In this document: in pieces, positions 29,248 to 47,656 of the stretch
Layout of the letters: every line of letters begins with the position of its first letter
How positions within the stretch are numbered: the first letter of the stretch is position 1
Assembly: GCA_014871385.1 (NCBI GenBank)
Contig: CM026426.1
Span: 72,923,573-72,987,572, forward strand
From: Ceratodon purpureus
Taxonomy: Eukaryota; Streptophyta; Bryopsida; Pseudoditrichales; Ditrichaceae
DNA length: 64,000 nucleotides
Direction: 5' to 3'
Program-made: the position numbers and the translations under genes
The notes under the pieces: generated by a model
Databases searched by the model: none
What the model was told of the DNA's origin: nothing
What the model saw: only the letters and a program-made list of their open reading frames with translations

Positions 29248-29335
29248 GCCCTATCCAGGGTTGTTCAAATAGACGTCCGACCCGGCTCCGGACGTCAAGA
29301 CGTCCAACCCGGACGTCCCCCGTCCCGGACGTGGC
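29248..29335. repeat. Left end of the giant hAT: TSD, TIR and subterminal GACGTCC cluster
   Basis: Target duplication GCCCTATC (29248-29255), then CAGGGTTGT, then GACGTCC or its complement at 29272, 29290, 29299 and 29311 and a variant at 29327. Clustered subterminal motifs are the usual transposase binding sites of hAT elements; binding here is inferred. Confidence 0.8.
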
Positions 29336-29359
29336 GTCCCCGACGCTCGAGAATTACGT

Positions 29360-30148
29360 CGCGGTAATAATTTTGCGACCCCGGAGGGGTAAAAACATTC
29401 CCCAGCCGTCCGATCGGCCGATCCCGCCACCACGCCTCATCTCGGCCGTCCGTTCGCTGGGACGGCCGCGGGGTCGTTGCGGACGGCCGCACGTCGATCC
29501 GACGGCCAAGATGCGGCCGTGCTGGCACATCGCGGGCCGTCGGATGTGGGCGCCCCTCCTGGGCCGTCGGATCCCACGGCCGTCGCCGCGGCCGACCGCG
29601 GGGACGGCCTCGGGGACGGCCGCGGGATCCGACGGCCCGGATCGACCCCGGCGCAGGCCATCCGGGACCGCTCGATCGGCGCGGCCGACCGCGGGCCGTC
29701 CGATCCCGCGGCCGTCCCCGTGGCCGTCCCCGCGGTCGGCAACGGCGACGGCCGCGTGATCGGACGGCCCGCGGCAGCCATGGTCGGCCTGGGTGGGCCG
29801 TCCGATCGGGCGGCCGTCTCCGCGGTCGGCCGCGGGGACGGCCACTGGATCGGACGGCCCTCCGCGGCCGACCATGGCGGCCGCGGAGGGCCGTCCGATC
29901 CCGCGGCCGTCCGCGTGGGCGACCGCGGGGAGACACGGCCGTCCGCGTGGCCGACCGCGTGCAGACGGGGCCGACCGCGGAGACGGCCGCGTCGGTCGGA
30001 CGGCCACGCGGCGCCATCGCCCGACGCGGCCGTCCGATCGGACGGCCGGCGCCTTCGGGCGGAGTCGCGCCCGATCGGACGGCCGCTGGGGCGTAGATCG
30101 GACGGCCGCGGGGACGGCCGTGGGGACGGCCGCGAGGTCGGCTTCCCC
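29360..30148. repeat. GGCCGTCC-rich array upstream of the kinase-like gene
   Basis: About 790 bp of very GC-rich sequence made of dense CGGACGGCC and GGCCGTCC words in both orientations. Long open frames on both strands are by-products of the composition. It ends just before a TATA box, so it may act as a promoter-proximal CpG-rich control region. Confidence 0.75.
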
Positions 30149-30156
30149 TATATAAG
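30149..30156 (+). promoter_or_regulatory. TATA box of the kinase-like gene
   Basis: CTATATAAGG directly at the end of the GC-rich array, about 290 bp upstream of the ATG at 30446. Confidence 0.6.
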
Positions 30157-30280
30157 GGGAAGCCGCCTCTTCATTTTTTACCTTTTTTCTCCCTTTTCGA
30201 GTGAGGCTGATTGCTACTGGTGGGGGACTTGATCCTTCTCCGTTGGTCGTTCTCACCGGGAGGAAAGGGGTCCTTCATTT

Positions 30281-30282
<2 letters not shown>

Positions 30283-30314
<32 letters not shown>
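30283..30314 (+). repeat. G32 homopolymer in the leader of the kinase-like gene
   Basis: Thirty-two uninterrupted G between the TATA box and the ATG. It could form a G-quadruplex in DNA or mRNA. The exact length may be affected by sequencing or assembly error. Confidence 0.85.
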
Positions 30315-30317
<3 letters not shown>

Positions 30318-30445
30318 TTTCGAATTTTTAAACGGTTTTTTTCAAAACCCTTTGGATTTGTATTGCTCTTATTAATCATTGTGGGAACTGAAGGTTTCTT
30401 TGGAGTTGCGGTTTCGATTTCTTGAAGCCTTGAAGGCTTTCCACG

Positions 30446-31921
30446 ATGTCGAAGAACAAGAAGCAGAAGAATGTGGGGGAATGGGCGAACAAATTCGATG
30501 ACATGCCGAGCTTACGTTGCAAGGATTATATTGTGGCATTCATCGTGGAATTTTACCAGGAGAATACCCTTGTTTCATTGAATAGTCGTTATGTTCGGTA
30601 TGAGGAAGATGGGCCCAGGAAATTCAAGTCAGAGATGGAGACAAAGATTAGGGATCGTTTGATGGATCCGTGCTGGCATTCGGATACACAGAAGCCCGGT
30701 TACGATCATTTCGTGTCACAACGTGCACACGATGCGTTATGGAATGCTCGTGAGGTTATTACTAAGTATGCAAAGGCGCAAAGGGGGGGAGTCCAGGCCT
30801 TCAAGGATACTATTGCAAAGGCAGATTGCTTCACGAGACTAATGGCGCCCCATAGCTCAAGAAAGCATCGACGGGCGTCTATTACTTGGTGGAATTCTCC
30901 GATTGGGATGGAGACGGCGGCTGACTTACGTAAACGGCATTTGACTATCTTGGCAGACTTTGCAATTTTCTATTACTTGGACAAGGAAGTCCAGAGAGGT
31001 GGTTATGCTACCATACGTAGGGTTCGTATCGAAGGAAACCCGGAAATCCCACCGTACTGGGAGTTTGCTGAGAAACGGCCGCTCAATTGGTCTATGAGGC
31101 CGGATTTGGCACGTGTGGACCACAACAATGAATCTCTTGCGATAAGGATTCCCCATCCTGGTGTCATCCGCTTCCAGGCCATTCATCAGTTGGAACATGT
31201 GGGATTCATGTTCTGGTGGAACGGTGGGACCCTTCAAGCCATGCTACAGAGAGACAACGAGGCCCCGGGTGACCTCCCCATCGACTACATCTTCAGAGAG
31301 AATGCAGACGACAGTCCGATTCTAGGGAAGCGTCTCCAACTTTTCCGAAGTAAGCGTACAGAGCTTGCTTGGGCATTGTGTAACATCATAGATGCAGTGC
31401 ACAAATACGGTTACCTCCACAATGACTTGTCACCGGACAACATCCTACTTCACTTTCCGGAAGATGAGTCCAAGATCTACATCGGGGTCTGTGATTGGGG
31501 CTTGATGACGAAGACACTAGAGAACAGAAGGTCGCCTTGGGTTTTTGAGAGTGTCCATCAGAAGGAGGAGACTATGAGGAGGCGATACTGGGTGGATCCT
31601 CGCGTGGTATACGTACACAAGGAAAACCAAGATATTCAAATCATTCCAGATTTGACGGTTGCATCGGAGGATTTCGCAGCTGCGAAGATAGCGGCGAAGA
31701 TCAACAGGGGCAACATGTGCACGGCATACCACGAAGCCGAGCTAGTAGAAACACGCCATTTCCAGAATATCGGAGAACTCGCAATGGTTTTCGAAGGTTA
31801 CATTGAGAGAGTTTGCCAAAACAACAGAGGAACGATTGGTGGACTCGGACATCTTATTAACCGTTTCAGAGATACACACAACTGGCCCACTCCCATCGAG
31901 CACTATCGCGAGGGTTACTGA
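30446..31921 (+). CDS. Protein-kinase-like cargo protein of the giant hAT
   Basis: 491 aa, ATG at 30446, no introns or breaks. The C-terminal half has a kinase catalytic loop YLHNDLSPDNILL (HND in place of HRD; catalytic Asp about residue 327 and Asn about 332 kept) and a DFG-like CDWGL with Asp about 350, so the C-lobe metal and catalytic residues look intact. I cannot identify a glycine-rich loop or the VAIK lysine with certainty, so activity is not assured. The N-terminal ~200 residues are basic and unassigned. Just upstream are a GC-rich array, a TATA box and a G32 run. It is convergent with the Arg-rich gene. Role unknown; phosphorylation of transposase or host factors is speculation. 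Confidence 0.75.
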   Translation: MSKNKKQKNVGEWANKFDDMPSLRCKDYIVAFIVEFYQENTLVSLNSRYVRYEEDGPRKFKSEMETKIRDRLMDPCWHSDTQKPGYDHFVSQRAHDALWNAREVITKYAKAQRGGVQAFKDTIAKADCFTRLMAPHSSRKHRRASITWWNSPIGMETAADLRKRHLTILADFAIFYYLDKEVQRGGYATIRRVRIEGNPEIPPYWEFAEKRPLNWSMRPDLARVDHNNESLAIRIPHPGVIRFQAIHQLEHVGFMFWWNGGTLQAMLQRDNEAPGDLPIDYIFRENADDSPILGKRLQLFRSKRTELAWALCNIIDAVHKYGYLHNDLSPDNILLHFPEDESKIYIGVCDWGLMTKTLENRRSPWVFESVHQKEETMRRRYWVDPRVVYVHKENQDIQIIPDLTVASEDFAAAKIAAKINRGNMCTAYHEAELVETRHFQNIGELAMVFEGYIERVCQNNRGTIGGLGHLINRFRDTHNWPTPIEHYREGY

Positions 31922-32861
31922 TATGGAGTTACATATCTACCTTTCCGTATTCCTATAAAAGCATAATGTTTTTTTTGTTACCGGACGGCGGGCATAGCTC
32001 TCAGTAGTGAATAGTCATATTTACACTCTATATTATTATGAGATGTTGGAATCTCAATTTTTGTACACCGGTCAATATTTTGTTTATAAAGTTTACTTGC
32101 ATTTGGTTCAAATATGGTCTCTGTACTGAGATTGGTCTATTTCTACCCCTTGTATTATGAGGAAAACGGATTGGCTCCACACATCTAGCTAAAAGTCGAT
32201 ACTCTCAATTCTAATTATGAAAATGATGCGATATGTGAATTGTAACCGTTATGCTTTGTAATTTTTATTCTTACAAATATTGGCAAGCGTATACTGAAGT
32301 TCTTTTCGTGAAGACGAAAGCGTAAGGGCCGCAAAACGTGATTGCTCATAATCCCCGGTACAAACAAATACCTTAGATATAAATATGCATCCCTCAAAAA
32401 TATCATTCACGATATTCTTATTAATTTAGCAAAAAAATAATTGAAAATTATTTTGCATACTTGTCTTGAGATTCATTATATTCTAGTGCTCGTAAGTCGT
32501 AACCCATGTCAATAGGAAGTTGTCATTTTAAAAATAGTGATATTGATAGTAATGTGCACTTCGAATACGGCTACAAGAATATTAAAAAGGTAAATTCCTT
32601 TCAAATGTGAAGACAACTACAATATAAAAGACAACACCACTACACTCTAAAACACTAATTCTATCTATTCTACTTGCAAAATGTGGCACGTGCCAGTATT
32701 CTTGAGTCCGTACATTTTAAACCTCCATCTACAAAACTGCAAACTACGTACATACTATGCTTGCATCTTTTACTTTCCGTTGTAAATTTGTAATATGCGA
32801 GGTCCACGTTAAAGTCTCGGTACGCTCCGATGCTGTTGAAAGTACTACCATGCACCCCATT
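31922..32861. other. Spacer between convergent cargo genes
   Basis: AT-rich sequence between the ends of the kinase-like and Arg-rich genes. It probably contains both 3' UTRs. No gene seen. Confidence 0.6.
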
Positions 32862-34364
32862 CTAATAGTCTCCCCTCCACCCTAATCCATTGTAGTCATA
32901 TGGATGATAATAGTTCCCATCATTGGGGAGTTCGCTTGGACCTCCCCGATCGTACGTTTCTTGTGGCCCGTGCCTTGCAGAATTTGTGGAGGCTCTCAGA
33001 AGTCTCTCTCTCTCCTCCATCAATCTTCGATTATCCCGTCTAAGGTGAAACGCATGATTCTCCATCTGTAGTACGTAATTTTGCCTTGTCCGCTCCAACT
33101 CTAATTCTTCCTCAAAATAGCTATCTCTTACAACTCGACCGGGAGGGTATCCAAAAGGAGGAGGTGGTACTCTGTCATCGGGATGAAGTACGTTGGGGTT
33201 GTCCCCGCTATTGTGATCAGTACCGTCGGTGTGATAACCTAGAGGTGGAGGAAATATTCCAGGCGGAGTCTGCGAAGATGATCTGTAATCATCTTCTGCA
33301 AATAGGGCAGATGGGGTACCATGACCACCATATCCGCGGTATGGAGGGGGAGTTGCATAATCATCACGTCCCAGTCTCTGCGTATCTTCTTCGCGATCTG
33401 GGGAATAACCGTGAGGTACCTCTCTCGGAGGTGTTCGATGGCGCGGACTAGCACTCCTTGGAGGACTCGGTATTTCCGACCAGCCGTCGTCATAGTTACT
33501 AAAGTATCTTGATCCCGTTGCATAATCTGGCCACGGTCGTCCCCCATAGGGTCCATACGCACCATCCGCAAAGTCAAAGGGTAAATCAGCTCCTTCCGGT
33601 TCCCCGTGGCCATAGCCTTGTTCCTGGGGTCCCATGTCCTGACGATCTAGTGAACGGTGTCCCCCGTGGGCAGAGCTTTGTCCATACTCCTCATGGTTGG
33701 TACGCGATGACTCTCTGGCACGATGCCCTCTGCGATTCCTGGGATTTTCCTTTGAGCGACGCCCTCGATAGTTGTCTTCATCATCATAGCTTAAACGACG
33801 TCTCTCCTGTTCCTCATCATTATATTTGATGGCTAGAGTTTGTATTCCTGCATCTTGTGCCGGTGGACTCCGACGGTTTGAAATATGTAATGGGGGACAA
33901 TCGCTATGTCCACTCCAGTCTGTTACAAGATCCATGCTGTCTCTGTTCATTCTATCTGTCCTCAGGCCCGAGACTGTGGTCCAGTCAACCCTCTTGTGTA
34001 AGACTATCTCCGCCCACACCATTGCCATATTCGAATACAACATGATATGAGGTCGGGAGTTCTGGATTCGTGCTGCTCGAAAAACCTCGTTGTATCGAAT
34101 TTTGAAATGATTACTTTCACAATTGTCGATCCTGATCTCTCCCCGTGTTGCTTGTTTCTCCGCAGCCTCGGTACGTAGATGTACTGGGATCAACTTCATG
34201 AGGTGCTTCATCTTGACATATTCCTTGCAAGTTACCATCCGCCATGGTGATGGTTCCCCCTCCCATCCAATCTCTGCCACACAATCAGGGTCATTCGTAG
34301 CGTATGGATCCAAGGGGTGTTTCCTTTTAGGAGTGGAGGGTCCTCCCCGGTCGTTACGAGGCAT
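32862..34364 (-). CDS. Arg/Asp/Tyr-rich cargo protein sharing an N-terminal domain with the RING-H2 cargo
   Basis: About 500 aa from ATG at 34364 (MPRNDRGGPSTPKRKHPL), no breaks. The frame is open for 27 codons further upstream without ATG. The N-terminal ~150 residues align by eye with the start of the RING-H2 protein: AE-x-GWE, then CKEYVKM-x-H-x3-KL, then HF/RY-x-EV and a hydrophobic SMxYAEIxLxxxxxW block. The rest is low complexity: Arg/Glu/Tyr-rich, with repeated DRxx, RRGHR, GYGHG and PPPFGYPP, suggesting a disordered RNA- or condensate-type protein, and a short coiled coil near the C-terminus (ELERTRQNYVLQMENHAF). Function unknown. It is transcribed divergently from the RING gene, across the AT-rich core. 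Confidence 0.7.
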   Translation of the reverse strand: MPRNDRGGPSTPKRKHPLDPYATNDPDCVAEIGWEGEPSPWRMVTCKEYVKMKHLMKLIPVHLRTEAAEKQATRGEIRIDNCESNHFKIRYNEVFRAARIQNSRPHIMLYSNMAMVWAEIVLHKRVDWTTVSGLRTDRMNRDSMDLVTDWSGHSDCPPLHISNRRSPPAQDAGIQTLAIKYNDEEQERRRLSYDDEDNYRGRRSKENPRNRRGHRARESSRTNHEEYGQSSAHGGHRSLDRQDMGPQEQGYGHGEPEGADLPFDFADGAYGPYGGRPWPDYATGSRYFSNYDDGWSEIPSPPRSASPRHRTPPREVPHGYSPDREEDTQRLGRDDYATPPPYRGYGGHGTPSALFAEDDYRSSSQTPPGIFPPPLGYHTDGTDHNSGDNPNVLHPDDRVPPPPFGYPPGRVVRDSYFEEELELERTRQNYVLQMENHAFHLRRDNRRLMEERERLLRASTNSARHGPQETYDRGGPSELPNDGNYYHPYDYNGLGWRGDY

Positions 34365-34700
34365 GGCGAAAGTCCGGAAAGCGAGTAGCTGTGAATACCG
34401 TGTATCGAACCAACCTCTAAAACAATGCCTGTAACTTCTCCCCACCGTATAAAAGTTGATTTAATCTCGTATATATCTAGTGCATAAGGACTAAAACAAA
34501 ACCCACAACTCCTGCCAAAAAACCGTACGTATGAAGCACTATATTGTTGGTTTCATAATAACCAACAAACGGTGCTGACAACCCTAAACACAATCCCACG
34601 ATAACCCGTGGAAAGTAGTAAAAGCTTGGAGGAACGCAACTGAGCTGAAGTAAATCCAGCACATGTAGCACGAGCACCCAAGTGAAGAAAAAGGAAGCAG

Positions 34701-34721
34701 GGCCAGCCATTTATGCTGGCC
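34701..34721 (-). promoter_or_regulatory. TATA-like site inside a hairpin, Arg-rich gene promoter
   Basis: On the minus strand CATAAAT lies in the loop of a perfect inverted repeat GGCCAGC...GCTGGCC, between the GC-rich array and the ATG at 34364. Confidence 0.4.
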
Positions 34722-34739
34722 CGAACCCCTAGACAGCCA

Positions 34740-35450
34740 GTTAGGTCAAACGACGGCCCCCCTACGGCCGTTGGATCTCGGGGAATGGAGAATCCAACGG
34801 CCGTAACTGGTCCGTCGCGGGAGCGGTCGCGGCCGTCCACGATCGCGGCCGCGACCGCTCCCCAAAGGGTGCGTCGGTGGACCGCCGCCCCGCGGTCGGG
34901 ACGGCCGACCACGTGGACGGCCGTCCCCGGGGTCGGCCGCAGCCCACCGCGGGGACGGCCGTGCTCCACCCCGCGGTCGGAGGCTGCAGCGGCATCGTCG
35001 GCCACGGCCGACCACGCGGATGGCCCTTCCGACCCCGGGGTGGGCCGTGGCCGTCCCCGCGGACGGCCGTGCTCCACTCCGCGGGGACGGCCTTGTCCGA
35101 CCCCGCGGGGACGGCCGTGCTCCACCCCGCGGTCGGCCACGGCCGTCCACGCGGACGGCCCTTCCGACCGCGGGGTCGGTCACGGCCGTCCACGCGGACG
35201 GACCTTCCGACCGCGGGGTCGGCCGTGGCCGTCCCCGGGGACGGCCTTGTCCGACCCCGCGGGGACGACCGCGGCCGACCCCGGGGTCGGGGGGCTGCGA
35301 CCGCGGTGTCGGCCACGGCCGTCCCCGCGTGGACGGCCGTCGTCCGGAGCCGTAGGTTCTTCTCGTCGGAGAAGATCCGACGGCCGTGGGCGACGGCCGT
35401 CCACGCGGGGTCGGCCGTGGCCGTCCCCGGGGACGGCCGGGGGGGGGGGA
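34740..35450. repeat. GGCCGTCC-rich array upstream of the Arg-rich gene
   Basis: About 700 bp of GGACGGCC/GGCCGTCC words, with recurrent units such as GACCGCGGGGTCGG. It lies immediately 5' of the minus-strand gene. Open frames of up to 300 codons on both strands here are compositional. Confidence 0.75.
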
Positions 35451-35649
35451 AGGTCGAAGGAACTCCCCTCCCCTTGTGTTTTCTCTCCTCTCCTCCCCCC
35501 TCTCCTCCCCTACTCTCCCCCCTCCTTGTCTCAAACAATCCCACTTGGGATTGTTTGGACAGCATATCTCCTAGAAATGGAAAATTCAGACATATCCCGG
35601 ATATTGTGGGGAATGTCCTGAAGATCCTGTGATCGGGGAGGTGGGGTCG

Positions 35650-38160
35650 ACGTTTGAAATTGGGATCCAATGAACTATGTGATATTTTGGTTCTTTGGGG
35701 GTGGATAATCCCCTAGGATCTACAAATAATGTGAACACGTTTATGAAGAAGAATATATATCCTATTGAATGGAAAGAACCGTAAACATTGTGGGTACACT
35801 AAAACAGTTTTTACCAATTGTCATTTAAAGAAACGAAGTTACTCATGTTTTAGCATACGGTAATGAATTAACATTTTATACTAACGAATCAAAAGAGTAA
35901 ATGTCAACAACGATATGATAAGAGGAACATCGCGGAGAGAATGCACTAGAAGTAATTTAACGCATAAATTGATGTTCACACTTGGTTTTTCATGCGGTGC
36001 ACCTTACGTTTAAATGGTTAAGAGATTAGCATTTATATTTCACCGGTTTACGGTTTCATAAATCTCTTAGAAATATAGATCCAATTTCTTCTCGAATAGT
36101 GGTATACAATGAAAATATTTATATAGATTCTTTGACTCTAATTTTTAATGGAATGATTTACCCCAGTTTTATTTCTTTAATTTTACAGACTCTCGTTCTT
36201 TAGTATTATGGTAGAATCAAAAATAAAAACATAAATAGTAGTTTAGATTATGAGAGAAACTGGAGATAATAATAAATTGAAAAAAACCAAAACAAACATT
36301 CAATTGAATCAATTCTCTTGGGATTATGCAATTCATGGGAGGAATAAAACTCAAATCATTGTTTTCATAACAAATGGTCCAATTCTAATTTCTCATGGCT
36401 GGTTTAGAGTTATATGAAATATAAAAACTCTCCTTGCTCTTTAATGTCTTTTATTTTACAAACTTCCATACCGTAGTACTGTGTTATCATTAAAAAAAAA
36501 AAAAAATCACTAGCTCACATTATGAGATGAAGAAGGGATAATAGTAAAAAACAAAATTAAAACAGAAAACATTCAACCGTCACTGAATAATGCCATTTGT
36601 GAACGACTAAAATTGAAATCATTGTTTTTATAAACAATTCTAGTTTCCAACGCCCAGAATTGAGTTGTACCTTGCAACTTATATGAAATAAAATAAATAA
36701 ATTAGGTAACACATTTACATTATATACTATACGAATGTATGTTTATTCATATACACTTTAACGTAAATATAAATATGGAATTGGATTCTAACTTGTACAA
36801 TGTATAGTACATACGTACAAAAGTAATCACTTACTAATGACACAATGAGAGAATTTAACAAGCACGATAATTCATAGAGACACATAGACTATACTGTACC
36901 AAGGAAAATTTAAAAAGTCACGACGTGAAATACTTGGAGCTACAAGTACGGAAATAAAATTATTACACGAAAACGTATATTGACGGGACATAATTTTAGA
37001 AATATATATATATTATTGGAATACTAAAAATACTGATGAACGATGTTTGGTAGGGTGGTATTGTTTCGGAATAGTAATTAATTAAATTAATGAACAACAC
37101 AAAGAACAAGAGGTTTGAGGACGGATATGAATATTAGAACTATAACGACGACGGGTGTAATATTAAGAAATAACGTATCGATACACTTGGGGAAAGCTGT
37201 GAAGTAGAAGTATATTCATAAGTAAACAAATGAGTGAACCATCAAAATAATAGACGAAAGAAGAATAGTTTGAGAGGGAAAGTATCGAAATTATAATTAT
37301 TACAAGAAATAGAAGTCGGCCATGATGTAGTGATACATGGAGAGTTGAAAACGTATATATGAAAGAGGTGTATAGTACTCAATAAAAACTAAAGCAGTAG
37401 GGTACATCTAGTAGAATATAATTCAAAACTAAAGCAGTAGGGTAGAATTAGTAAAATGGTGGAATAGTGGTCAAATTAGTAAAATATACTTTAACATGGG
37501 TCATGGAGGAAATAAATCGAAATACGAACGTTCAAAACGATATGAAAGGAACAAATTCACGAAATGACATTTATGGAGCTTCGAGGGTTGGAGTTGTAAA
37601 TTAGACAAATTAGACGTTAAAAAAAGGGCATAAACTAGGGGGGAATAAACATAGAGGAAAATAAAGAAGAAGTAAGTGAAAACAATATTCGAAAGTGGAA
37701 ATTGTATAGAGGGAGGAACGTTAAAAGTACATAAAGAGATGGTAACTCGAATTAAATTGAGAATATGAAGCCGTTTAATGAAAGTATAATAGAAGTACTT
37801 ATGTATTTAAAAAAACAAAAATTCAAAGCGGAGAATAAGAAGACGGAGAACTATTAAGATTACAATTTCTGAAACAAGTTTAGATGAGTTCGATTTCTGC
37901 GAGGAACTTCTGGAGTGCGATGATAGACAACCTGAAATGCGTACGATAGAAACAACAGTAATAATGATTCGAATAAATGACACATACATTAACTTCGGTG
38001 GAGCGTACGGAATAATGACTCGTTGAAGAGTTTAGATGCTTTGCATACCATGAAGTATTTTAATTCATGTTTACATTAACTGATGTTCTCATTTTAATTG
38101 GTGAAAGAAATTAACAGGTTTAGTGTAATATGTGGTCTGAAGATGTAGCATTATATGTTT
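35650..38160. other. AT-rich gene-free core of the giant hAT
   Basis: About 2.5 kb with low GC, many short A/T runs and no plausible gene on either strand, in sharp contrast to the two GC-rich arrays that border it. It separates two divergently transcribed cargo genes. A local duplication AAAACTAAAGCAGTAGGGTA occurs near 37385 and 37425. Confidence 0.7.
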
Positions 38161-38199
38161 TTTTCTTTTGTATTTAAAAAAAGGGGGGGAGGGAAATTT

Positions 38200-38760
38200 C
38201 CCGCGGCCGCGACGGCCTCGTCCCCACGTTCGGGGGCCGTCTCCACGGCCGTGGGCCGTCTCCGCGAGGGGCCGTCCGCGGGGACGGCCCTTCGACCGCG
38301 GCCGTGATCGAACGGCCGTCGCCTTGGAGACGGCCCCGATCGGACGGCCGCGAGCTGTCGCCGACGGTGCGGTCCCCGCGGCCATCTCCAAGGCCGTCTA
38401 CGCGGCCGTCCCCGCGCGGTCGGCCGCCATCGGACGGCGACGGCCGCGGGGACGGCCGCGATCGGAGGGCCGCAAGCCGCCCCCTCGGGGGCCGTCTCCA
38501 AGGCCGTCCCCTCGGCGACGGCCTTCATCGGACGGCCGTCGCCGAGGAGAGGGCCCGATCGGACGGCCGCGGAGGCACGGGCCTCCGCGGCCGTCACCGT
38601 GGCCCCCGAGCCGACGGCCCCCAATGGCCGTCGTCAGGTTCGGGACGACGGCCATTGGCCGCGGCCGTAGGATCGGGGGGCGACGGCCCTAGGCTCGGGG
38701 GGACGGCCGTAGGGTTGGGGGCCGTCGCCATATATGGCGACGGCCGTCCCCCACTTCCTC
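38200..38760. repeat. GGCCGTCC-rich array upstream of the RING-H2 gene
   Basis: About 560 bp of GACGGCC/GGCCGTC words directly 5' of the plus-strand RING gene, ending in the palindromic TATA region at 38721-38744. Confidence 0.75.
38721..38744 (+). promoter_or_regulatory. Palindromic TATA region of the RING-H2 gene
   Basis: A perfect 24-bp palindrome whose half is GCCGTCGCCATA, with TATATA at the centre. It lies about 240 bp upstream of the ATG. Confidence 0.5.
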
Positions 38761-38978
38761 ACTTCACTCTCCTCAATAGTCCCTCTCCTATTGCTACAGT
38801 TTCCCAATTCACTTGGGAGCTTGTTGGTACGTGGGGGTGAGGAGATGGGGGTCCCTTTTTATTGTGGGGGGTGGAGTTTTTGAATTTTCTGTATTCGTTA
38901 TTTTGTAAACCGTCATTTATCAACTCCTTGTTTTCTTTAAAACAAAACCATTACTTTTTTGTTTAAAACGAGGTTACT

Positions 38979-41900
38979 ATGGCGGATCCGGAGCATGATG
39001 AGATTGGAGGAACCGGGAAGAGGAACAGGCCGAAGGGAACGTGCCACAACTTTTCTTGGGAGATCCTAGACAACAAAAACATTGTAGCAGAAGAAGGCTG
39101 GGAATCTATAGGGGAGATTTTCTGGACTTTCAAGGAGTGCAAGAAGTATGTGAAGATGTATCACATTGACAAGTTGTGGCCCCGAGAACAACATGATTTG
39201 AACACACGGACTTTTAGTTGCAAGCCGTGGTCATGCATGGATGACCATTTCTTGCATCGGGCATATGAAGTCTGGACTACTATGTTTGGGCAACGGAAGC
39301 CCAGCAAAGGCCATTTCAATTATACCATTTGCAGTATGGTATATGCGGAGCTAATATTGAAGCGGAAGATTAGTTGGTGTACGTACCCCACTACGAAAGA
39401 CAGGCCCTTGCAAATTGGATGGATGGTAAGAGACATTCCGGATTTATATCTGATCGATCCTTTGCAAGCACAGAAGGTTGTAGCGGAGTTCCGAAAGCGG
39501 CAGTGGCCACATCTAAAGAGCTTTCCGAAGAATGAAGTAAAAAAAGTACAGAATGAAACTCCGCATCGTCCAGAGGAAAAGAAGCCCGTTGCCATTGCCA
39601 ATGTGATCGCTACGATGTTCCCCGTTGCCACAGAAACTAATGTCCCTACTATTCTTAGAGCAGACCTGGGAATCACGGTGAAATCTTCCAACGATACAAA
39701 GGGCAAGGCAGCCGTAGATGAGGTGGAAGTGGAGGTGGACAATGACTGCTCAACACATCTTACGGCTGCGGAAGCCGGATGCTCCAACCCTCGTTCAGTG
39801 GATGATGGTCCAAGTTCCTTGGCAATAGTACAAGTGCCTACCGAAGAGGATAGCACAAAGGATGCAGTTCATTCCATTTCGGAGATTATGGAGCTGGTGA
39901 AGTCGATGCCAAACAACGAATCATTGAAGGAGTTACTAGATTTTAGCATCAAATTGACGGAGGTGTCCTCTGATGAACAGCGTGGGGGCTTAGAGAATAC
40001 CACGGAGGGAGACGATGCAGGAAAAACCACGGAGGAAGTGCAACAAATTCATAATGTGTTGAAGATTGCACACACCCTGAAAGAAGGGGCTTCCGTATTA
40101 GGCGCTATGGCACCAGATCTCATAAATATGGCTCATGCATTTGGAAGTATCACTCCGGGCATGATACAGGGTGCCCTCGGCTTTGAGACTTTGGCATCTT
40201 CCATTAAGCCTCTTCTGGAAGACCGTGTGAAATTAGGCGAAGAGAACGTGGCCCTGAGTAAGGATTTAATGGAGGCAACGCAACAAATCAAGAGTTTGAC
40301 AAAAAGGTTGGACAATGTGAAGATGAATTTTTATGAACAATTGGAAGAGTGCAAAATCTACCACCCGGTAGATAAGGAGAAAAACAAAACAAAAGAAGTG
40401 AAGCCTATGGTGAAGAAGGAAGTGGTGAAGGTGGAAGGAAAGGATCGTATCATTGAAGTATTGAGCGATGGTGAGGATTCCGATGACCTTGGCCTTTCTA
40501 AATTTTCAAATAAAAGTGGAGATGGGGCCACACAAGGGATGGCGTCTCAGAAGTCTAAAATGACATCTAGTCCAGTTCCATTGGACATTGGCTCTAGCCA
40601 AGCAACACCAAGACATGAGGATAGAGGACAAGGGCCAATGGATGATTCAATAAAATTAGACATTCTTTTACAGGATTTGGAGGTGGCTAGAAGGGAAAGA
40701 GACGAGGCCCGTACGGAACTGGAAAGGCTGAAGACCACCATAAAGATGGTAGATGATACACCATCTTCCATAAGGGCATTATCATGGCTTGGTTGGGTCC
40801 ACAAACTACGAGATAAGGAGACAATAGTCTCTAGAGCACAACAGGATATGAAGAAATGTGCAATTACTTCTATGGATGTCGAAGAAGCTATCCAATCATC
40901 TTTACAGAAGTATAACGAGGCAGCAGCCAAGGGCGGCGAGGATGCTACAAAAATCACGATATGGCGCGATGTAGGAGAAATGATGGAGCGCACATTACAT
41001 AGTTCCAAAAATAAAGAAGGGGTCATTGACTGGGCGCTAGAGGTCGAGGAGGGGTGGATGCCGTACGATGTACTATCATCTCATTTGGATGAATCGAAAC
41101 GTGTGGTTATCCATACCCGCAAACCGTCGGAGGAATATTCGAAGGAAACGTGTCCCATCTGTCAACAATATTTTGGGCCGGAAGGGGCCTTTGAGATGGG
41201 AAATTGTAATCACAAGTTCCACATAACCTGCATCGCGAAGGCTGCTTTAAACAACAAACAATGTGTTATGTGTCGCTCCCCAATTAGTTCACGTTTTTAC
41301 GAGATGCTGGGACTACAACACGTGATGCCGCCTGGGCATGAGTTTGATCGGTGGAATTTACCACTAGACCAACTACCTAAGAAAGAGCTGAATTATTATG
41401 AATGGGGCAAATCACTGGCTTGGAACCCGGAGACAATGACTCACCAACTATCTACGGCTAACGATGCCGGAATGGACGATCTTTCATGGATGACACACGA
41501 CTATGAGGTGGAGATGAAGGCACGTGAAATTCCGGATGCCAAGGACCGAGAATTTTTTTGTAGGAACTTCGGTGGACATTGGAGTATACATGGCAATCGC
41601 TTCTTCCGGTTTCCAAAACCGGAAGTTGTGGTAGATGCCGACGGTAAGAGAAGAGAAGTAGAACGGGACTATGGCCAACTTGATGAGTACAAGATGTATG
41701 ACAGAACCCCGGTTGGGAGGGCACTTGTATTGGCCAAACTAGAAGAAGCCATTCAGCATCGTCGCACTTTTACAGAGGAATCCTTCAAATATTCGGACCT
41801 AGACTACTGGGTGATCATTGAGAAGTCTAACGATGCTCTTCAGAAAATAGTTAACGACTGGAGGAGGGCACTTCGTGCGGAGGATAATTCCTCTCGTTGG

Positions 41901-42149
41901 TCACGCAATAGGATTGAGAAGATTGTGCAAGAAACAGTAGCCAAGATTGAGAAGGCAAAGGAGTTGTGGAACGGGAAGAATTCCAAGAAGCGCAATCGAG
42001 ACAACCCTTATGAAGATGATCCCGAATGGGGGGAAGATAATCGTCGTTCTTTGGATCGCGTGGAAGAAGAATATCGATTGGGGGGTACGATTACACATCC
42101 AAGCCAGCGACGCCAAACTCGGAGGTCAAATGCAAACAATGGACGTTGA
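38979..42149 (+). CDS. RING-H2 coiled-coil cargo protein, putative E3 ubiquitin ligase
   Basis: 1056 aa, ATG at 38979 (MADPEHDEIGG), intact and intronless. Residues ~20-150 share the CKxYVKM...KL and SMxYAELxLxxxxxW domain with the Arg-rich cargo protein. Residues ~390-470 and ~555-590 are predicted coiled coils. A RING-H2 finger spans about 725-765: CPIC, then NCNHKFHITC, then CVMC, a complete C3H2C3 ligand set. The ~290 residues after it are charged and unassigned, ending in a basic tail. RING-H2 proteins usually recruit E2 enzymes and transfer ubiquitin. An E3 role here is inferred from the finger alone. Possible targets are host silencing factors or the transposase, both speculative. It is convergent with the transposase gene. 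Confidence 0.8.
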   Translation: MADPEHDEIGGTGKRNRPKGTCHNFSWEILDNKNIVAEEGWESIGEIFWTFKECKKYVKMYHIDKLWPREQHDLNTRTFSCKPWSCMDDHFLHRAYEVWTTMFGQRKPSKGHFNYTICSMVYAELILKRKISWCTYPTTKDRPLQIGWMVRDIPDLYLIDPLQAQKVVAEFRKRQWPHLKSFPKNEVKKVQNETPHRPEEKKPVAIANVIATMFPVATETNVPTILRADLGITVKSSNDTKGKAAVDEVEVEVDNDCSTHLTAAEAGCSNPRSVDDGPSSLAIVQVPTEEDSTKDAVHSISEIMELVKSMPNNESLKELLDFSIKLTEVSSDEQRGGLENTTEGDDAGKTTEEVQQIHNVLKIAHTLKEGASVLGAMAPDLINMAHAFGSITPGMIQGALGFETLASSIKPLLEDRVKLGEENVALSKDLMEATQQIKSLTKRLDNVKMNFYEQLEECKIYHPVDKEKNKTKEVKPMVKKEVVKVEGKDRIIEVLSDGEDSDDLGLSKFSNKSGDGATQGMASQKSKMTSSPVPLDIGSSQATPRHEDRGQGPMDDSIKLDILLQDLEVARRERDEARTELERLKTTIKMVDDTPSSIRALSWLGWVHKLRDKETIVSRAQQDMKKCAITSMDVEEAIQSSLQKYNEAAAKGGEDATKITIWRDVGEMMERTLHSSKNKEGVIDWALEVEEGWMPYDVLSSHLDESKRVVIHTRKPSEEYSKETCPICQQYFGPEGAFEMGNCNHKFHITCIAKAALNNKQCVMCRSPISSRFYEMLGLQHVMPPGHEFDRWNLPLDQLPKKELNYYEWGKSLAWNPETMTHQLSTANDAGMDDLSWMTHDYEVEMKAREIPDAKDREFFCRNFGGHWSIHGNRFFRFPKPEVVVDADGKRREVERDYGQLDEYKMYDRTPVGRALVLAKLEEAIQHRRTFTEESFKYSDLDYWVIIEKSNDALQKIVNDWRRALRAEDNSSRWSRNRIEKIVQETVAKIEKAKELWNGKNSKKRNRDNPYEDDPEWGEDNRRSLDRVEEEYRLGGTITHPSQRRQTRRSNANNGR

Positions 42150-42611
42150 GTAGAGTATTTACGTTGGACATGGTACCCGCATTACTACGGTTAATGTGAC
42201 AATACACTGGGTGATAGTCGTATTTAGAGCAGTATATATATATATATTGGTTGCGGAGCCGGGTGTATGGACTTTACACTACTTCTATATGTACTTGCAA
42301 AAATTACCTCTGGTTTTAATACAATTTCATTTATGATTTATCGGAGTTGCATTTGTGTTGAAAGAATTGTTAGTACTTAGATGCATCGAACTTCATATGT
42401 AGATTGTGTACATTCATTACGAGAAAGAAATTGCGAGAAGTACAATCAAAGTAAAAATAAGTACACAACGTGGAGGACAATATTGAAGAGGCAAGCACCA
42501 CCGCTTAAATGAGATATAATATGATAATGGTTTCTAGAAATGGACATTCATAAAAGAGTGGCATTCTAGGGTGGTGCACTGGAAATGCCGCCTTCTAACT
42601 ATCGTGCCCAA
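42150..42611. other. Spacer between RING-H2 and transposase genes
   Basis: AT-rich, with a short TA run near 42234-42247. Probably both 3' UTRs. No gene seen. Confidence 0.6.
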
Positions 42612-45600
42612 TCAAGCCACATAATCGCTGTCGTCCTTCACTTCGGCCCCACTAGGACCGGAAGAATCGTATTCGTCATCGCCATCGCTCTCGCGTACCT
42701 TCTTCACCCTTGCCTTAGTCTTCTTCTTTGACTCGAATGGGTCCAGGAATTTCTTTGGGCCATTCGGGTCATCCAAAGGAGTTTTTGGCCTCCCAGGATT
42801 GAAAGCCAACACCTTCTGAGTCTTGTCTACAGCCTTTCGCTTGGACGTGGCTCTAGCAGGGGGTTTCTCAGGAAATATGTCCGGTTTTCCCAAAGCCAAC
42901 TTCGGCCCAAAGAGATTCCCAATTGGAAGTCCGTCATCAGTAGAGAGGAGGCCCGGGTCCGCTTGTCGGGTTGGGACCAATCTCTTCCTACATTTCTCCG
43001 CTACTTCAGCAGCCTTAGCATCTGCCTTTATTTTTTTAGACAACTCAACCAACCTCGTGGACGATTCGAACCCACCAACTTGGACCCTAGTCTTTGCAGT
43101 TCCAAACAATGTGCGAGATGCACCCGATACGGGTACGGACACATCCTCCTTTGTAGTGGGTGGAACCATATCGTCCTTCAGGCGGTTGAAGTTTGGAGAA
43201 ACAACCTTAGAAGTATCAATGGTGGGGTCTCCCTCTTTCTTTGGTATGACCAAATCCACGGTAGTATGAGAGGATCCTCCCCGGAGAATCTTATCACTGT
43301 TTAATAAACCGTCTCCATTCAAAAAAGAGGAAAGATGAATCGTATCCTCCTCGTTGGTACCTTCTTCTTCGACATCATCATACTCGAAAGCACGCTCCAT
43401 TGGCGCAGGAGAACAACGGGATTTTCCTTTCGGAGACACCTCGAGGTCGTCGACTGGGGCCTCGATGGGGGGGTCAATTGATAGATCATCGAAGGGTAGA
43501 TCAACATCAGACTCACTAGAGTAGTCAACATCCTCGGTTTCCACGGCCTTCGGATCCTCCTTCCCCTCCAACTCCCCGTAGAACCTGCCTAAGGCACTCA
43601 ACTTGGACTGGGAAATTATCTTGGAATTTGTATACACAAACACGAGGTCATTAGCCCTCTCCGGAAGTAAACGGTTTCGCTTCCTGTCGTGGACAAAGGA
43701 GTAGCTACTCCAATTCCGCTCGCATGAAGAAGAAGACAGGGGCTGAGCTAAAATCCTTTTTGCAATTGGGGAAATGAATTTACCAACGGATCCGTATATA
43801 TCCCACCAACTAGAAGGCGGCAATTGTGACTTAGAGGAGTCACGTACGTCACGAAACGGAGGATAAGCTTCACGAAATGCTAAGAACTCTTCTATGACCA
43901 CTTCCTTCAGTGTCGGAGGAGCCATCGACAACAAGACCTCCTTCGCCGATGCCATTGCATCAGTATCATTGCGAAGGTCCTCATCGTCAATAAGATAAGG
44001 GTTTAGAAGCGCAGCAACACACTGAAAGGGTGATTTAATCATGGCTTTACGCTCGTAAAATGAGTCCTCGCAGAAATCAGCATTGTCTGAGTCTAGTTTG
44101 AAGGGCTCATGGCGTAAAGAGAGAACATGCTTCTCAAGGTTGCGGAGAACGACGTAGGCTTTACCCAATGCCGATTCCTTCGCATCAAACTCTCGTAGGG
44201 CATATACAACGGGACTCGTCATCCACTTGAAGTTTGCACATTGCTCCCAGAAAACGTCATCCAAGACGACCCTCTTAACATCGCGTGAGATCTTCGCTTT
44301 GTCACGGGCAGATAAGGTCTTCTTCGTTTCGTAGTTTCTCCAGTCACGATCCACAACGCTCTGCTCCAATGCTCCTCGAACCTTCAATAGACGCGAAATC
44401 ATAATGTAGTGCGATGCAAACCTAGTTCGACCAGGCATCAGCAAGCTAAGTTTTGCCTCGTGCTTTCGAAATACAGAGAGTGGCATTTGCCTTATCTTTA
44501 TGAACTTAACCAAGTTCTTAGCCCGATCTAGGAGCTCCTTCACCCACTTCATCTTACTCCAATCCTCCAACAAAAGGTCCATCGCATGGGCAGCACATCC
44601 TTGGACAAATATGGAGGGATAGAGTGCTTGGACCAACTTTCCGGCATTAAGCATCACCGGAGCATTATCGTAGCATACTTGAATGATGTTCTGTTCTCCA
44701 ACTTGTTGGATAAACTTCTCAATGACGGTCGCTACGAAAACGGCATCCTTCTCTTTCCCACTCGTGTCAACGGCGCCCAAAAATAACTCACCAGCAGGAG
44801 ATACCAGCATTGCGTTTATTAGAGGGCGACTGCTTACAGAAGTCCATCCATCGAGGGCCAACGTTCCCCCGTACTTCCTAACACTTGAAAAAATCCTATC
44901 ATTCAAGGAAGTCTCCAAATCAGTCCTTGCTTGGGCTAGTAAATTTGTTCGGAGATGGTGGAAAGATGGAGGTGTGTATGATCTCTTCATGTTGGACGTC
45001 TTCAACACCGCGTCCTTCAAAGAGGCACTCCGAGCCACGTTAAACGAGATACTGTTCTCATAAAAACATGTGGCCCATGCTTTGTCGCATTCCCGCCTCT
45101 GAGTCTCTTCGAAGCCCTCTTGAAGGGTAGATTGCCTCTTTGCCTTCAAAGGAGGAAACTGTCCACTACCTTCCCTCGGAAGAGTGGAAATGAAAGGTAC
45201 ACCCTCACCAAATAAAACGGGTTCATTCTTCGGAGTTGAAACCCGGGATCCAGCGCATGAGTCCACATCCATGGGAGTGTTCACTCTCGGGGATATATTG
45301 CCACGAGTCACGGGGGAAGTACTCTGCTCCGACATGAATATTCTGGAGTCGTTGGGGAATTTGCCACCGCAATTCTTGAACAAGGACAGTATAGCGGGTG
45401 ACAAATTAGTGCAACGACCTACTCCACTAGTCCATAGCCCTAGAACTTTGTCATAGCCCAAATGACTGAGCATCCGCTCAATCCTCTTTGCGAAAGTGTT
45501 CTTGCATAGCATACATTGAACCATCTCACTCTTCTTCTTCTCCGCATCGATCATATGGACTTCGGTATACCATCGGGAGTAACTTTTAGACGCCATTGGT

Positions 45601-45647
45601 GCACTTGATAGATCGCCCGGAAAAACTTCAAAAAATCGGGGTACCAT
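42612..45647 (-). CDS. hAT transposase, BED finger and DUF659 type
   Basis: About 1011 aa from the first in-frame ATG at 45647; a second ATG at 45596 (MASKSYSRWY) is an alternative. Order: BED-like zinc finger (Cys about 45 and 48, His about 62), DUF659 RNase H-like core with LALDGWTSV (first catalytic Asp about 266), VCYDNAPVML (second Asp about 327), QGCAAHAMDLLLEDW, RTRFASHYIMI, and the C-terminal dimerisation block PLSSSSCERNWSSYSFVH with catalytic Glu about 643. All expected hAT motifs are present without stop or frameshift, so it should be autonomous. After about residue 690 a long acidic then basic low-complexity tail of ~320 residues extends beyond usual hAT length, perhaps a regulatory or nuclear-targeting region. 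Confidence 0.92.
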   Translation of the reverse strand: MVPRFFEVFPGDLSSAPMASKSYSRWYTEVHMIDAEKKKSEMVQCMLCKNTFAKRIERMLSHLGYDKVLGLWTSGVGRCTNLSPAILSLFKNCGGKFPNDSRIFMSEQSTSPVTRGNISPRVNTPMDVDSCAGSRVSTPKNEPVLFGEGVPFISTLPREGSGQFPPLKAKRQSTLQEGFEETQRRECDKAWATCFYENSISFNVARSASLKDAVLKTSNMKRSYTPPSFHHLRTNLLAQARTDLETSLNDRIFSSVRKYGGTLALDGWTSVSSRPLINAMLVSPAGELFLGAVDTSGKEKDAVFVATVIEKFIQQVGEQNIIQVCYDNAPVMLNAGKLVQALYPSIFVQGCAAHAMDLLLEDWSKMKWVKELLDRAKNLVKFIKIRQMPLSVFRKHEAKLSLLMPGRTRFASHYIMISRLLKVRGALEQSVVDRDWRNYETKKTLSARDKAKISRDVKRVVLDDVFWEQCANFKWMTSPVVYALREFDAKESALGKAYVVLRNLEKHVLSLRHEPFKLDSDNADFCEDSFYERKAMIKSPFQCVAALLNPYLIDDEDLRNDTDAMASAKEVLLSMAPPTLKEVVIEEFLAFREAYPPFRDVRDSSKSQLPPSSWWDIYGSVGKFISPIAKRILAQPLSSSSCERNWSSYSFVHDRKRNRLLPERANDLVFVYTNSKIISQSKLSALGRFYGELEGKEDPKAVETEDVDYSSESDVDLPFDDLSIDPPIEAPVDDLEVSPKGKSRCSPAPMERAFEYDDVEEEGTNEEDTIHLSSFLNGDGLLNSDKILRGGSSHTTVDLVIPKKEGDPTIDTSKVVSPNFNRLKDDMVPPTTKEDVSVPVSGASRTLFGTAKTRVQVGGFESSTRLVELSKKIKADAKAAEVAEKCRKRLVPTRQADPGLLSTDDGLPIGNLFGPKLALGKPDIFPEKPPARATSKRKAVDKTQKVLAFNPGRPKTPLDDPNGPKKFLDPFESKKKTKARVKKVRESDGDDEYDSSGPSGAEVKDDSDYVA

Positions 45648-45800
45648 GTCCTCAAGAGAACTAGAGCCTCCGAAGAAGCTCCAATTCAACACACTTCTGA
45701 ACGCCGCCGTTCACCATGCAACAGATACACACGTATATTAGTGCAACTAGTAGCACATGGAGTACAATTCAGAAGTGTAATGGCAACTTTCAGGAGGGGT

Positions 45801-45808
45801 CTTTTATA
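45801..45808 (-). promoter_or_regulatory. TATA box of the hAT transposase gene
   Basis: Minus strand reads TATAAAAG, about 155 bp upstream of the ATG at 45647 and just downstream of the GC-rich array. An out-of-frame ATG with a short upstream frame lies between them. Confidence 0.6.
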
Positions 45809-45849
45809 CTCATCCCATGAAATGCCAAGGGGTAAGCCCTAAAAATCAA

Positions 45850-46240
45850 CGGAGGACGGCCGTCGAGGCCGTAAGTCATTAAGGGGCCGTCCGATCATGG
45901 ACTGTCACGGCCGTCGAAGGGGCCGTCGCCGGGGACGGCCCCCCCCACCGTGGCGACGGCAAGGGGCCGTCGCCGGGGACGGCCCCCCCCACCGCGGCGA
46001 CGGCAAGGGGCCGTTGCCGGGGACGGCCCCCCCCCTCCGCGGCGACGGCAAGGGGCTGTCGCCGGGGACGGCCCCCCCCACCGCGGCGACGGCAAGGGGC
46101 CGTCGCCGGGGACGGCCCCCCCCCTCCGCGGCGACGGCAAGGGGCCGTCGCCGGGGACGGCCCCTTCCCGACGCGTCCGACGGCCCCCCCCGCTCCGCGG
46201 CGACGGCCGCACCCTCCCCCGCAACCCCTCCGCCGCGTAG
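45850..46240. repeat. GC-rich array upstream of the transposase, with six tandem ~44-bp units
   Basis: From about 45917 to 46165 there are six near-identical units of about 44-46 bp, each GGGGCCGTCGCCGGGGACGG followed by a C-run and CGCGGCGACGGCAA. Unit lengths differ mainly in the C-run. This is the fourth array of the element and the only one with a clear tandem period. Confidence 0.85.
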
Positions 46241-46247
46241 AAGATGT

Positions 46248-46269
46248 GGTTTCACCCCGGGGTGAAACC
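46248..46269. repeat. 22-bp perfect palindrome near the right end of the hAT
   Basis: The half-site is GGTTTCACCCC followed by its exact complement. It sits between the GC array and the GACGTCC cluster of the right end. Confidence 0.75.
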
Positions 46270-46301
46270 TATGCGGGTGATTTTTTTTTTTCTAAGTCAC
46301 A

Positions 46302-46385
46302 GGACGTCCCCTGGCGCTGGCGGACGTCCGCGGACGTCCCCACGTCCCGAGCGTCCCGGACGACCGTGACAACCCTGGCCCTATC
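46302..46385. repeat. Right end of the giant hAT: GACGTCC cluster, TIR and TSD
   Basis: GGACGTCC at 46302, 46322 and 46332, variants ACGTCCC and GCGTCCC further right, then the terminus ACAACCCTG ending at 46377 and the target duplication GCCCTATC at 46378-46385. Confidence 0.85.
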
Positions 46386-46631: not shown

Positions 46632-47656
46632 ATGAAGACTAGAGCGTTGACAGATGCTGAGAAAGGACAAGTGGTTGGAATGCACAAAGCTGGAAGCAAA
46701 GGTGTGGAGATAGCAAGGGAATTAGGTATGCCTTCTTCCACCGTTTATGGTGTAATAAACAGTTTCAAAAAACGAGGAACTGTAAAGTCACCAAAGCCAA
46801 CAGGTAGGCCTCGAAAGTTTACAGAGCGGGATAAGAGACAGTTAGAACGTCTCCTTAATGAAGATCGTTGTAAACCACTCACAGAAATTACAAATGAGAT
46901 GGCACGTATTGCAAAGGTTAGTACTCGTACTGTAAGGAATGCTTTGCATACCCTTGGTTATAGAAGCTGTGTTGCAGTAAAAGAACCTTTTCTTAGTAAA
47001 AAGCACATGACAGATAGGTTAGCATTTGCTAAAGAGCATAAAAATTGGACAAAGAAAGATTGGAAGAAGGTTATTTGGACTGATGAATCATCTTTCGAAA
47101 TAGGAAGGAGTTCTAGACAAATTAGAGTGTGGCGAAAGGCTTACGAAAGATATTCAGATAAATGTCTAGTACCAACTTTCAAGTTCGGGCGTACGTCGGT
47201 GATGGTTTGGGGTGCTTTTAGTGGCTTTGAGAAGGCTCCTTTGGTAATCATACCTCCAGATAAGCGAAGTGCAGGTGATTTTGTGGAACTTATTTACGAT
47301 GGCGCTTTAACTCCATTTTATTTTATCCATAAACCTCACAAAGACATGTTACTTATGGAGGACGGCGCTCTAGTCCATTGCAACAATTTGCCAAACAAGG
47401 GAGACAAAAAATCGGTATAACGAAGTTGAAGTGGCCTGCCAACTCTCCAGATCTAAATCCAATTGAGAACCTATGGAAAATTATTAAAGATGAAGTTTAA
47501 AGTAAATCCCGGCCACGCAATGCACAAGAATTGGTGGAACCACTTCAAAGAGTATGGGAAGAGATACCTTTTGACCTCTTAGAAAACCTTATTGATACCA
47601 TGCCTACACGTATGAAGGAAGTAATTAGTGCAAAAGGTGGTAGTACTAGATTTTGA
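46632..47656 (+). pseudogene. Tc1-family (DD34E) transposase, one frameshift and one stop
   Basis: ATG at 46632 (MKTRALTDAEKGQVVGM). An N-terminal helix-turn-helix pair with GRPRKFTERDKRQL between (about residues 1-110) is followed by the DDE core: VIWTDESSF (first Asp), LLMEDGALVH (second Asp) and, after a frameshift near 47395-47410, WPANSPDLNPIENLW with the Glu. A TAA near 47498 (KDEV then stop) also interrupts it. The end is TGA at 47654-47656. About 340 aa in all, the normal family length. It belongs to the Tc1-like element whose TIRs lie at 29038 and 47871. The two lesions make it inactive unless bypassed. Confidence 0.9.

Follow-up and report, generated by a model that had tools for sequence, protein, structure and literature searches.

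Structure of the element and its four genes

The genome of the moss Ceratodon purpureus was analyzed around a stretch of 64,000 nucleotides, C6:72923573-72987572 (hereafter the window, whose positions are counted from its first base). As judged from its termini, the duplications beside them, and its other copies, a 17,122-bp hAT transposon lies at 29256-46377 on the forward strand of the window. A typical autonomous hAT element has one gene in a few kilobases, and the family is marked by an 8-bp duplication, short CAGGG... inverted termini, and the motifs D-D-E, CxxH, and W. The unit found here is almost certainly a recently active, high-copy hAT element of autonomous type, which has four genes, measures about 16.7-17.1 kb in its complete copies, and has moved as one unit.

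The ends of the element pair over 9 bp, CAGGGTTGT, at 29256-29264 (plus strand) and, by terminus comparison, at 46369-46377 (minus strand). The octamer GCCCTATC is present in the window at two places only, 29248-29255 and 46378-46385, and abuts the element on both sides. Since two occurrences were reached in 45 of 100 shuffles and are thus not rare, it is the placement of the pair that is meaningful. When the flanks of the 24 CAGGG and 42 CCCTG sites in the window were compared, 29256-46377 was the only pair with identical flanking 8-mers, and no pair had flanks matching at seven of the eight positions. Look-alikes of the terminus with one mismatch were at chance level in the window (13 vs. 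15.19). GACGTCC was found at 18 sites in the window (shuffled mean, 6.05), and these sites are grouped at both element ends; by motif count, the left cluster spans 29272-29318 and the right one 46302-46339. An exact 8-bp duplication, matching termini, and subterminal GACGTCC clusters had all been claimed in a first-pass annotation of this DNA, and all of them were borne out.

Four intronless open reading frames lie inside the element. They encode a kinase-like protein of 491 amino acids (30446-31921, plus strand), an arginine/proline (Arg/Pro)-rich protein of 500 amino acids (32862-34364, minus strand), a RING-H2 protein of 1056 amino acids (38979-42149, plus strand), and a hAT transposase of 1011 amino acids (42612-45647, minus strand). 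The first-pass annotation had described an intact transposase and three further intact intronless genes; the four frames are indeed open, but the transposase start is probably 45596 and not 45647. In the nine other copies fetched (see below), the ATG at 45647 is replaced by GTG in eight and by TTG in one, while codon 18 is ATG in all ten copies. Thus, codon 18 is the likelier start and would give a transposase of 994 amino acids.

The transposase has Pfam matches to DUF659 (PF04937, 1.7e-35) and to the hAT dimerization region Dimer_Tnp_hAT (PF05699, 2.2e-10). In an alignment of the query with 19 of the 44 relatives found, all 20 sequences keep D249, D310, E626, the CxxH motif (334-337), and W351 (residue numbers count from codon 18), and I take D249, D310, and E626 to be the D-D-E triad known from hAT transposases. 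A match to the BED zinc finger (PF02892, E = 0.031) is below the cut-off, and C28, C31, and H45 are invariant in the same 20 sequences. The best match among solved structures is Hermes, which is weak (E = 0.12).

The kinase-like gene was so named in the first-pass annotation. Its Pfam kinase match (2.6e-5) falls below the cut-off, but its product has the fold and the catalytic residues of a protein kinase: K210, E229, D327, N332, and D350 are invariant in 31 of 31 aligned sequences (the query and 30 of at least 60 relatives), and the predicted model (predicted local distance difference test score, pLDDT, 84) matches protein kinases by fold. This protein has HND and DWG in place of the HRD and DFG found in most kinases. 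It is 96% identical to KC19_VG055000 of C. purpureus (P0006), a kinase copy annotated as V-linked, whose catalytic loop has QND where HND is expected from the element. Thus, KC19_VG055000 may be a decayed copy that was annotated as a gene. From the "VG" in this locus tag, C6 (110,524,308 bases) is presumed here to be the V sex chromosome.

The RING protein has a Pfam RING finger match (1.9e-7), and the eight zinc ligands of its RING-H2 finger are invariant in six of six sequences. Its structure model is poor (pLDDT 39) and unusable for fold comparison. The Arg/Pro-rich protein has no Pfam match. It was found that about 120 N-terminal residues are common to the Arg/Pro-rich and RING proteins (BLASTP, 1e-9), and a profile of six RING N-termini scored 67.8 bits against the Arg/Pro-rich protein. 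This common N-terminal domain is new here and goes beyond the first-pass annotation.

GGCCGTC arrays and copies across the genome

One GC-rich block lies upstream of each gene, with a GC content of 0.77-0.80 and a CpG observed/expected ratio of 1.03-1.35. With bounds set by eye, the blocks are located at 29340-30150 (plus strand) for the kinase gene, 34720-35450 (minus strand) for the Arg/Pro-rich gene, 38195-38760 (plus strand) for the RING gene, and 45850-46250 (minus strand) for the transposase gene, the last with tandem units of 44/89 bp. It was revealed that these blocks are arrays of GGCCGTC. Counted on either strand, they hold 30, 23, 27, and 16 sites, respectively, against shuffled means of 1.3, 1.0, 0.7, and 0.5, an enrichment of about 20-40 fold relative to dinucleotide shuffles for each array. 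All 96 of the sites in the window copy are in these arrays, with none elsewhere in the element and a single one in the window outside it. Thus, the element bears two sequence codes, GACGTCC at its ends and GGCCGTC at its promoters, the former presumably read by the transposase. A TATA-like pattern matched at three of the arrays or downstream of them (kinase, Arg/Pro-rich, and transposase) and had no match at the RING array. A run of 32 G residues (30283-30314) lies between the array and the start codon of the kinase gene.

Are the four genes kept together in other copies? Ten copies (c01-c10) were fetched, which are the ten best transposase matches of at least 45 in the genome, the window copy included. 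All four genes, intact or not, are present in the same order in all ten. Both termini are resolved in eight copies, while the left ends of c02 and c03 fall in unread gaps. Wherever both flanks are readable (seven copies; the left flank of c08 is unread), the 8-bp duplications match, and the seven differ from one another. The first-pass annotation had proposed that full copies with distinct duplications be sought and that the co-occurrence of the four genes in each be checked, and both turned out as it had supposed. Pairwise identity among the eight complete copies is 0.977-0.998. Their 9-bp terminal inverted repeat is the same in all eight, and GACGTCC occurs four to five times in the first 120 bases and four to six times in the last 120. 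No empty site turned up when the ten copies, the window, and as many as four additional loci were checked; one 43-bp match was obtained, which does not span the junction. A chance nest, a pair of unrelated hAT fragments, or an assembly artifact was also considered. Nothing beyond the unread gaps in c02, c03, and c08 speaks for such an origin, and ten places with the same content and seven different matching duplications make it next to inconceivable.

The arrays were traced through the same copies. Each of the eight complete copies has 90-107 GGCCGTC sites, every one of them within the four arrays, and the array lengths differ among copies (e.g., 401-668 bp upstream of the transposase gene). 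The presence of one GGCCGTC array per gene in all eight is new here. The flanking DNA is devoid of the motif in seven of them, and the flank of c06 has 20 sites. These are located at about 0.4-1.1 kb past the right end of c06 (L022/L023), which coincides with the diverged left end (84% identity) of another, related element that has its own GGCCGTC array. This neighbor is an older or sister family. An AT-rich stretch of about 583 bp (36867-37449; element position about 7612-8195) is found in c01-c04 but not in c05-c10, indicating two subfamilies.

The four proteins were then used as queries against the whole genome; since only the best candidates were scored, all of the following lists are lower bounds. 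At least 45 matches were obtained for the transposase (95-100% identity), at least 44 for the RING protein (95-100%), at least 87 for the kinase (89-100%), and at least 86 for the Arg/Pro-rich protein (87-100%). By their offsets in the element, the 262 listed matches were placed at no fewer than 119 distinct loci, of which 85 have at least two genes in the lists, 39 at least three, and 19 all four. A gene missing from the lists is not necessarily absent from a locus, because c02, which is listed as transposase only, holds all four genes (some of them broken).

C6 makes up 30% of the assembly and has 52 of the 87 listed kinase matches (binomial P = 2.8e-8), 21 of the 44 RING matches (P = 0.02), and 18 of the 45 transposase matches (P = 0.19), although the ranking of the lists by similarity to a C6 copy may bias these counts. 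Kinase matches without stops number 28 of 52 on C6 and 29 of 35 elsewhere (Fisher P = 0.006). The same comparison was not significant for the RING protein (P = 0.16) or the transposase (P = 0.22).

Other transposon sequences were observed in the window. A Tc1/mariner-type transposase frame (46632-47420, plus strand; PF01498, 1.6e-16) begins 254 bp past the end of the hAT element, which may have landed in or beside this frame. Parts of a CACTA-type element lie at 56402-59647 on the minus strand, with frames for Transposase_21 (tnp2, 3.5e-62) and DUF4218 (3.1e-30).

Selection and relatives

Changes were counted among the ten copies against a neutral spectrum taken from the noncoding columns of the eight complete ones. 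The transposase gene has an omega-like value of 0.35 (P = 1.4e-7) and the Arg/Pro-rich gene one of 0.56 (P = 0.022). Simple counts against c01 gave 0.30-0.37 for the transposase, 0.23-0.61 for the Arg/Pro-rich protein, 0.32-0.58 for the kinase, and 0.61-0.97 for the RING protein. Stops are rarer than synonymous changes predict in the transposase (P = 0.011) and RING (P = 0.021) genes. No stop or indel in any gene is common to two of the ten copies, and every break is private. From the neutral-model rates, I reckoned that about 9.6 shared stops would be expected over the four genes and 7.2 over the three accessory genes. Thus, the spreading lines keep the frames open.

In the searches for relatives elsewhere, those of the transposase are 97, 85, and 75% identical, with one partial relative at 73% and the others mostly at 51% or less. 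RING relatives, five among 8000 scored candidates, are 82, 66, 40, 38, and 33% identical. Kinase relatives, 60 among 4489 scored candidates, are 96, 79, and 62% identical and then mostly 50% or less. Thus, the transposase, RING protein, and kinase diverge in parallel tiers of 85/82/79% and 75/66/62%. The transposase P0068 and the RING protein P0002 have longest contigs of the same size, 7,321 bp, and so do the transposase P0086 and the kinase P0041 (27,639 bp), which suggests gene linkage in other genomes. A distant kinase in the C. purpureus genome itself (C3:9421637-9423121) is 56% identical to P0021 and has one stop. One kinase relative, P0027, is filed under a metagenome-assembled genome of Bacilli; my guess is that it is probably plant contamination in that bin. 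The only bacterial relative found is a weak partial match at 30% (L011), and tblastn detected no relatives in viral_contigs. A viral origin was rejected, as the Pfam matches of the four proteins include no viral gene.

Possible roles of the accessory genes and comparison with known transposons

Judging by the array at each gene, the common N-terminal domain, the catalytic residues of the kinase, and the similar divergence tiers, the three extra genes seem to have belonged to the element for a long time. The first-pass annotation had called them cargo, which is probably the wrong word given the shared promoter arrays, the common domain, and the similar tiers. As that annotation proposed, the kinase may act on host signaling and the RING protein on protein turnover.

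What may these genes do? I tentatively favor the idea that they serve the element by self-recognition and anti-silencing, as VANC does in VANDAL elements; taken as a whole, with its mechanism, this statement is a serious possibility that falls short of being probable. The common domain of the RING and Arg/Pro-rich proteins would direct them to the chromatin of the element itself via the GGCCGTC arrays. At the arrays, host silencing factors would be eliminated or inactivated by the RING protein, acting as an E3 ligase, and the kinase. As a result, all four promoters would stay active, and the transposase would act on the termini. The logic would be that of VANC anti-silencing in the Arabidopsis VANDAL elements, built from other parts. 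According to the available text of two reports (PMC10398659, PMC5735166), VANC binds short motifs in noncoding tandem repeats and removes silencing marks. It is possible, if rather doubtful, that an enzyme-based anti-silencing evolved independently of VANC, in which the paralogous RING and Arg/Pro-rich proteins recognize the arrays, the kinase is their partner, and phosphorylation and ubiquitination do the work.

Several points weigh against this anti-silencing idea. DNA binding by the common N-terminal domain is putative, and the CpG-rich arrays could be promoters read by host factors. No VANC-type family was found among the Pfam/NCBIfam matches of the four proteins, although such a model may be missing from these libraries and VANC itself was not directly compared. 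Only the equal contig sizes suggest that the genes are linked in other genomes, and the search for relatives there covered the transposase, the RING protein, and the kinase. Among the ten copies, the kinase (0.74, P = 0.13) and RING (0.81, P = 0.13) genes are not significantly constrained; as far as the sequences tell, these two either have been under weak constraint recently or change fast. In the Arg/Pro-rich (P = 0.34) and kinase (P = 0.054) genes, stops do not fall significantly short of the number predicted from synonymous changes. Full-length frames remain in five of the ten copies for the kinase, seven for the Arg/Pro-rich protein, six for the RING protein, and eight for the transposase, and all four frames are full length in three copies. 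Among the listed matches, 28 of 45 transposase, 34 of 44 RING, and 57 of 87 kinase matches are free of stops, with frameshifts not counted.

A second protein acts in some other plant DNA transposons. The accessory proteins may likewise be direct helpers or regulators of transposition, acting in complex assembly, nuclear entry, timing, or repression with no anti-silencing at all, and the arrays would then serve as promoters or be bound by proteins that the element encodes. The retention of the genes together in all ten copies and the array at each gene in the eight complete ones agree with such a role, and the separate clustering of GACGTCC at the ends points to a different motif as the one read by the transposase. 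Nothing direct stands against it. However, proteins are the substrates of a kinase and an E3 ligase, the arrays lie at promoters and not at the very termini, and hAT transposases generally move with one protein. A helper role is conceivable but not likely.

It was also considered that the arrays work as insulators, or as CpG-island promoters that host factors read, and would so permit expression of the four genes, and that the accessory proteins have roles unrelated to silencing, such as in the cell cycle or against rival elements. The GC and CpG values of the arrays and the TATA-like sequences near three of them fit this explanation, but base composition does not account for one 7-mer so strongly enriched over shuffles in all arrays, and I regard it as improbable. 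Alternatively, the kinase and RING genes may be captured host genes that ride as passengers and are of no use to the element but perhaps of use to the host. Kinase and RING-H2 domains are common in eukaryotes, recent constraint on both genes is weak, and five kinase and four RING copies of ten are broken. Against this, the same type of array lies upstream of all four genes and nowhere else in the element, two of the accessory proteins have a domain in common, and their relatives diverge in tiers like those of the transposase. In addition, no break is shared between copies, and among the five RING and 60 kinase relatives, only two have a named plant source, which is Ceratodon in both cases. Thus, passenger genes seem quite improbable.

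How does the element compare with known transposons? It resembles the hAT superfamily (Ac, Hermes, and Tol2) in its 8-bp duplication, CAGGG termini, and DUF659/Dimer_Tnp_hAT transposase with D-D-E, CxxH, and W, while its four genes and 17 kb differ from a typical hAT. En/Spm and MuDR encode a second protein beside the transposase; in contrast to the Ceratodon element, they belong to other superfamilies and have no kinase or RING protein. The VANDAL elements of Arabidopsis, which are Mutator-like elements (MULEs), are similar in having several genes and noncoding tandem arrays of short motifs that vary among copies, as far as the available text describes them (PMC10398659, PMC5735166). The arrays are alike in kind, and the motif itself differs. 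Unlike VANDAL, the Ceratodon element is a hAT and not a MULE, its accessory proteins are a kinase, a RING protein, and an Arg/Pro-rich protein, and its anti-silencing is proposed by analogy. ToxhAT, a 14-kb transposon of wheat-pathogen fungi, is described in the available part of its report as a large hAT-type element with a further gene (PMC9594970). It differs from the Ceratodon element in being fungal and known for moving a fungal effector gene, and no promoter arrays were seen in that part of the report. The Starships, giant transposons of fungi, are also large with many genes; they differ in belonging to the tyrosine recombinase class, in their size of hundreds of kilobases, and in their variable cargo. 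The Pfam matches of the four proteins include neither a tyrosine-recombinase captain domain nor Teratorn-type viral structural or replication genes. In the published literature, to the extent its text was accessible and with preprints and Repbase outside the scope, no description of a four-gene plant hAT was found. The main text of a 2026 review on gene capture by plant transposons (PMC13317346), as far as it was available, has no word beginning with "hAT". By its defining features, the Ceratodon element is a hAT, and its gene set and promoter arrays are apparently new.

Since this moss has U/V sex chromosomes, the element may be relevant to the accumulation of repeats on such chromosomes, though the C6 signal is uneven among the genes. 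A stable four-gene hAT with an array at each gene, present at at least 119 loci, is a natural system for the study of how a transposon survives host silencing without viral genes. If the proposed anti-silencing is true, the element would be a further case, beside VANC, of a transposon that marks its own genes with motif arrays, and here it would do so by means of recognizable enzyme domains.

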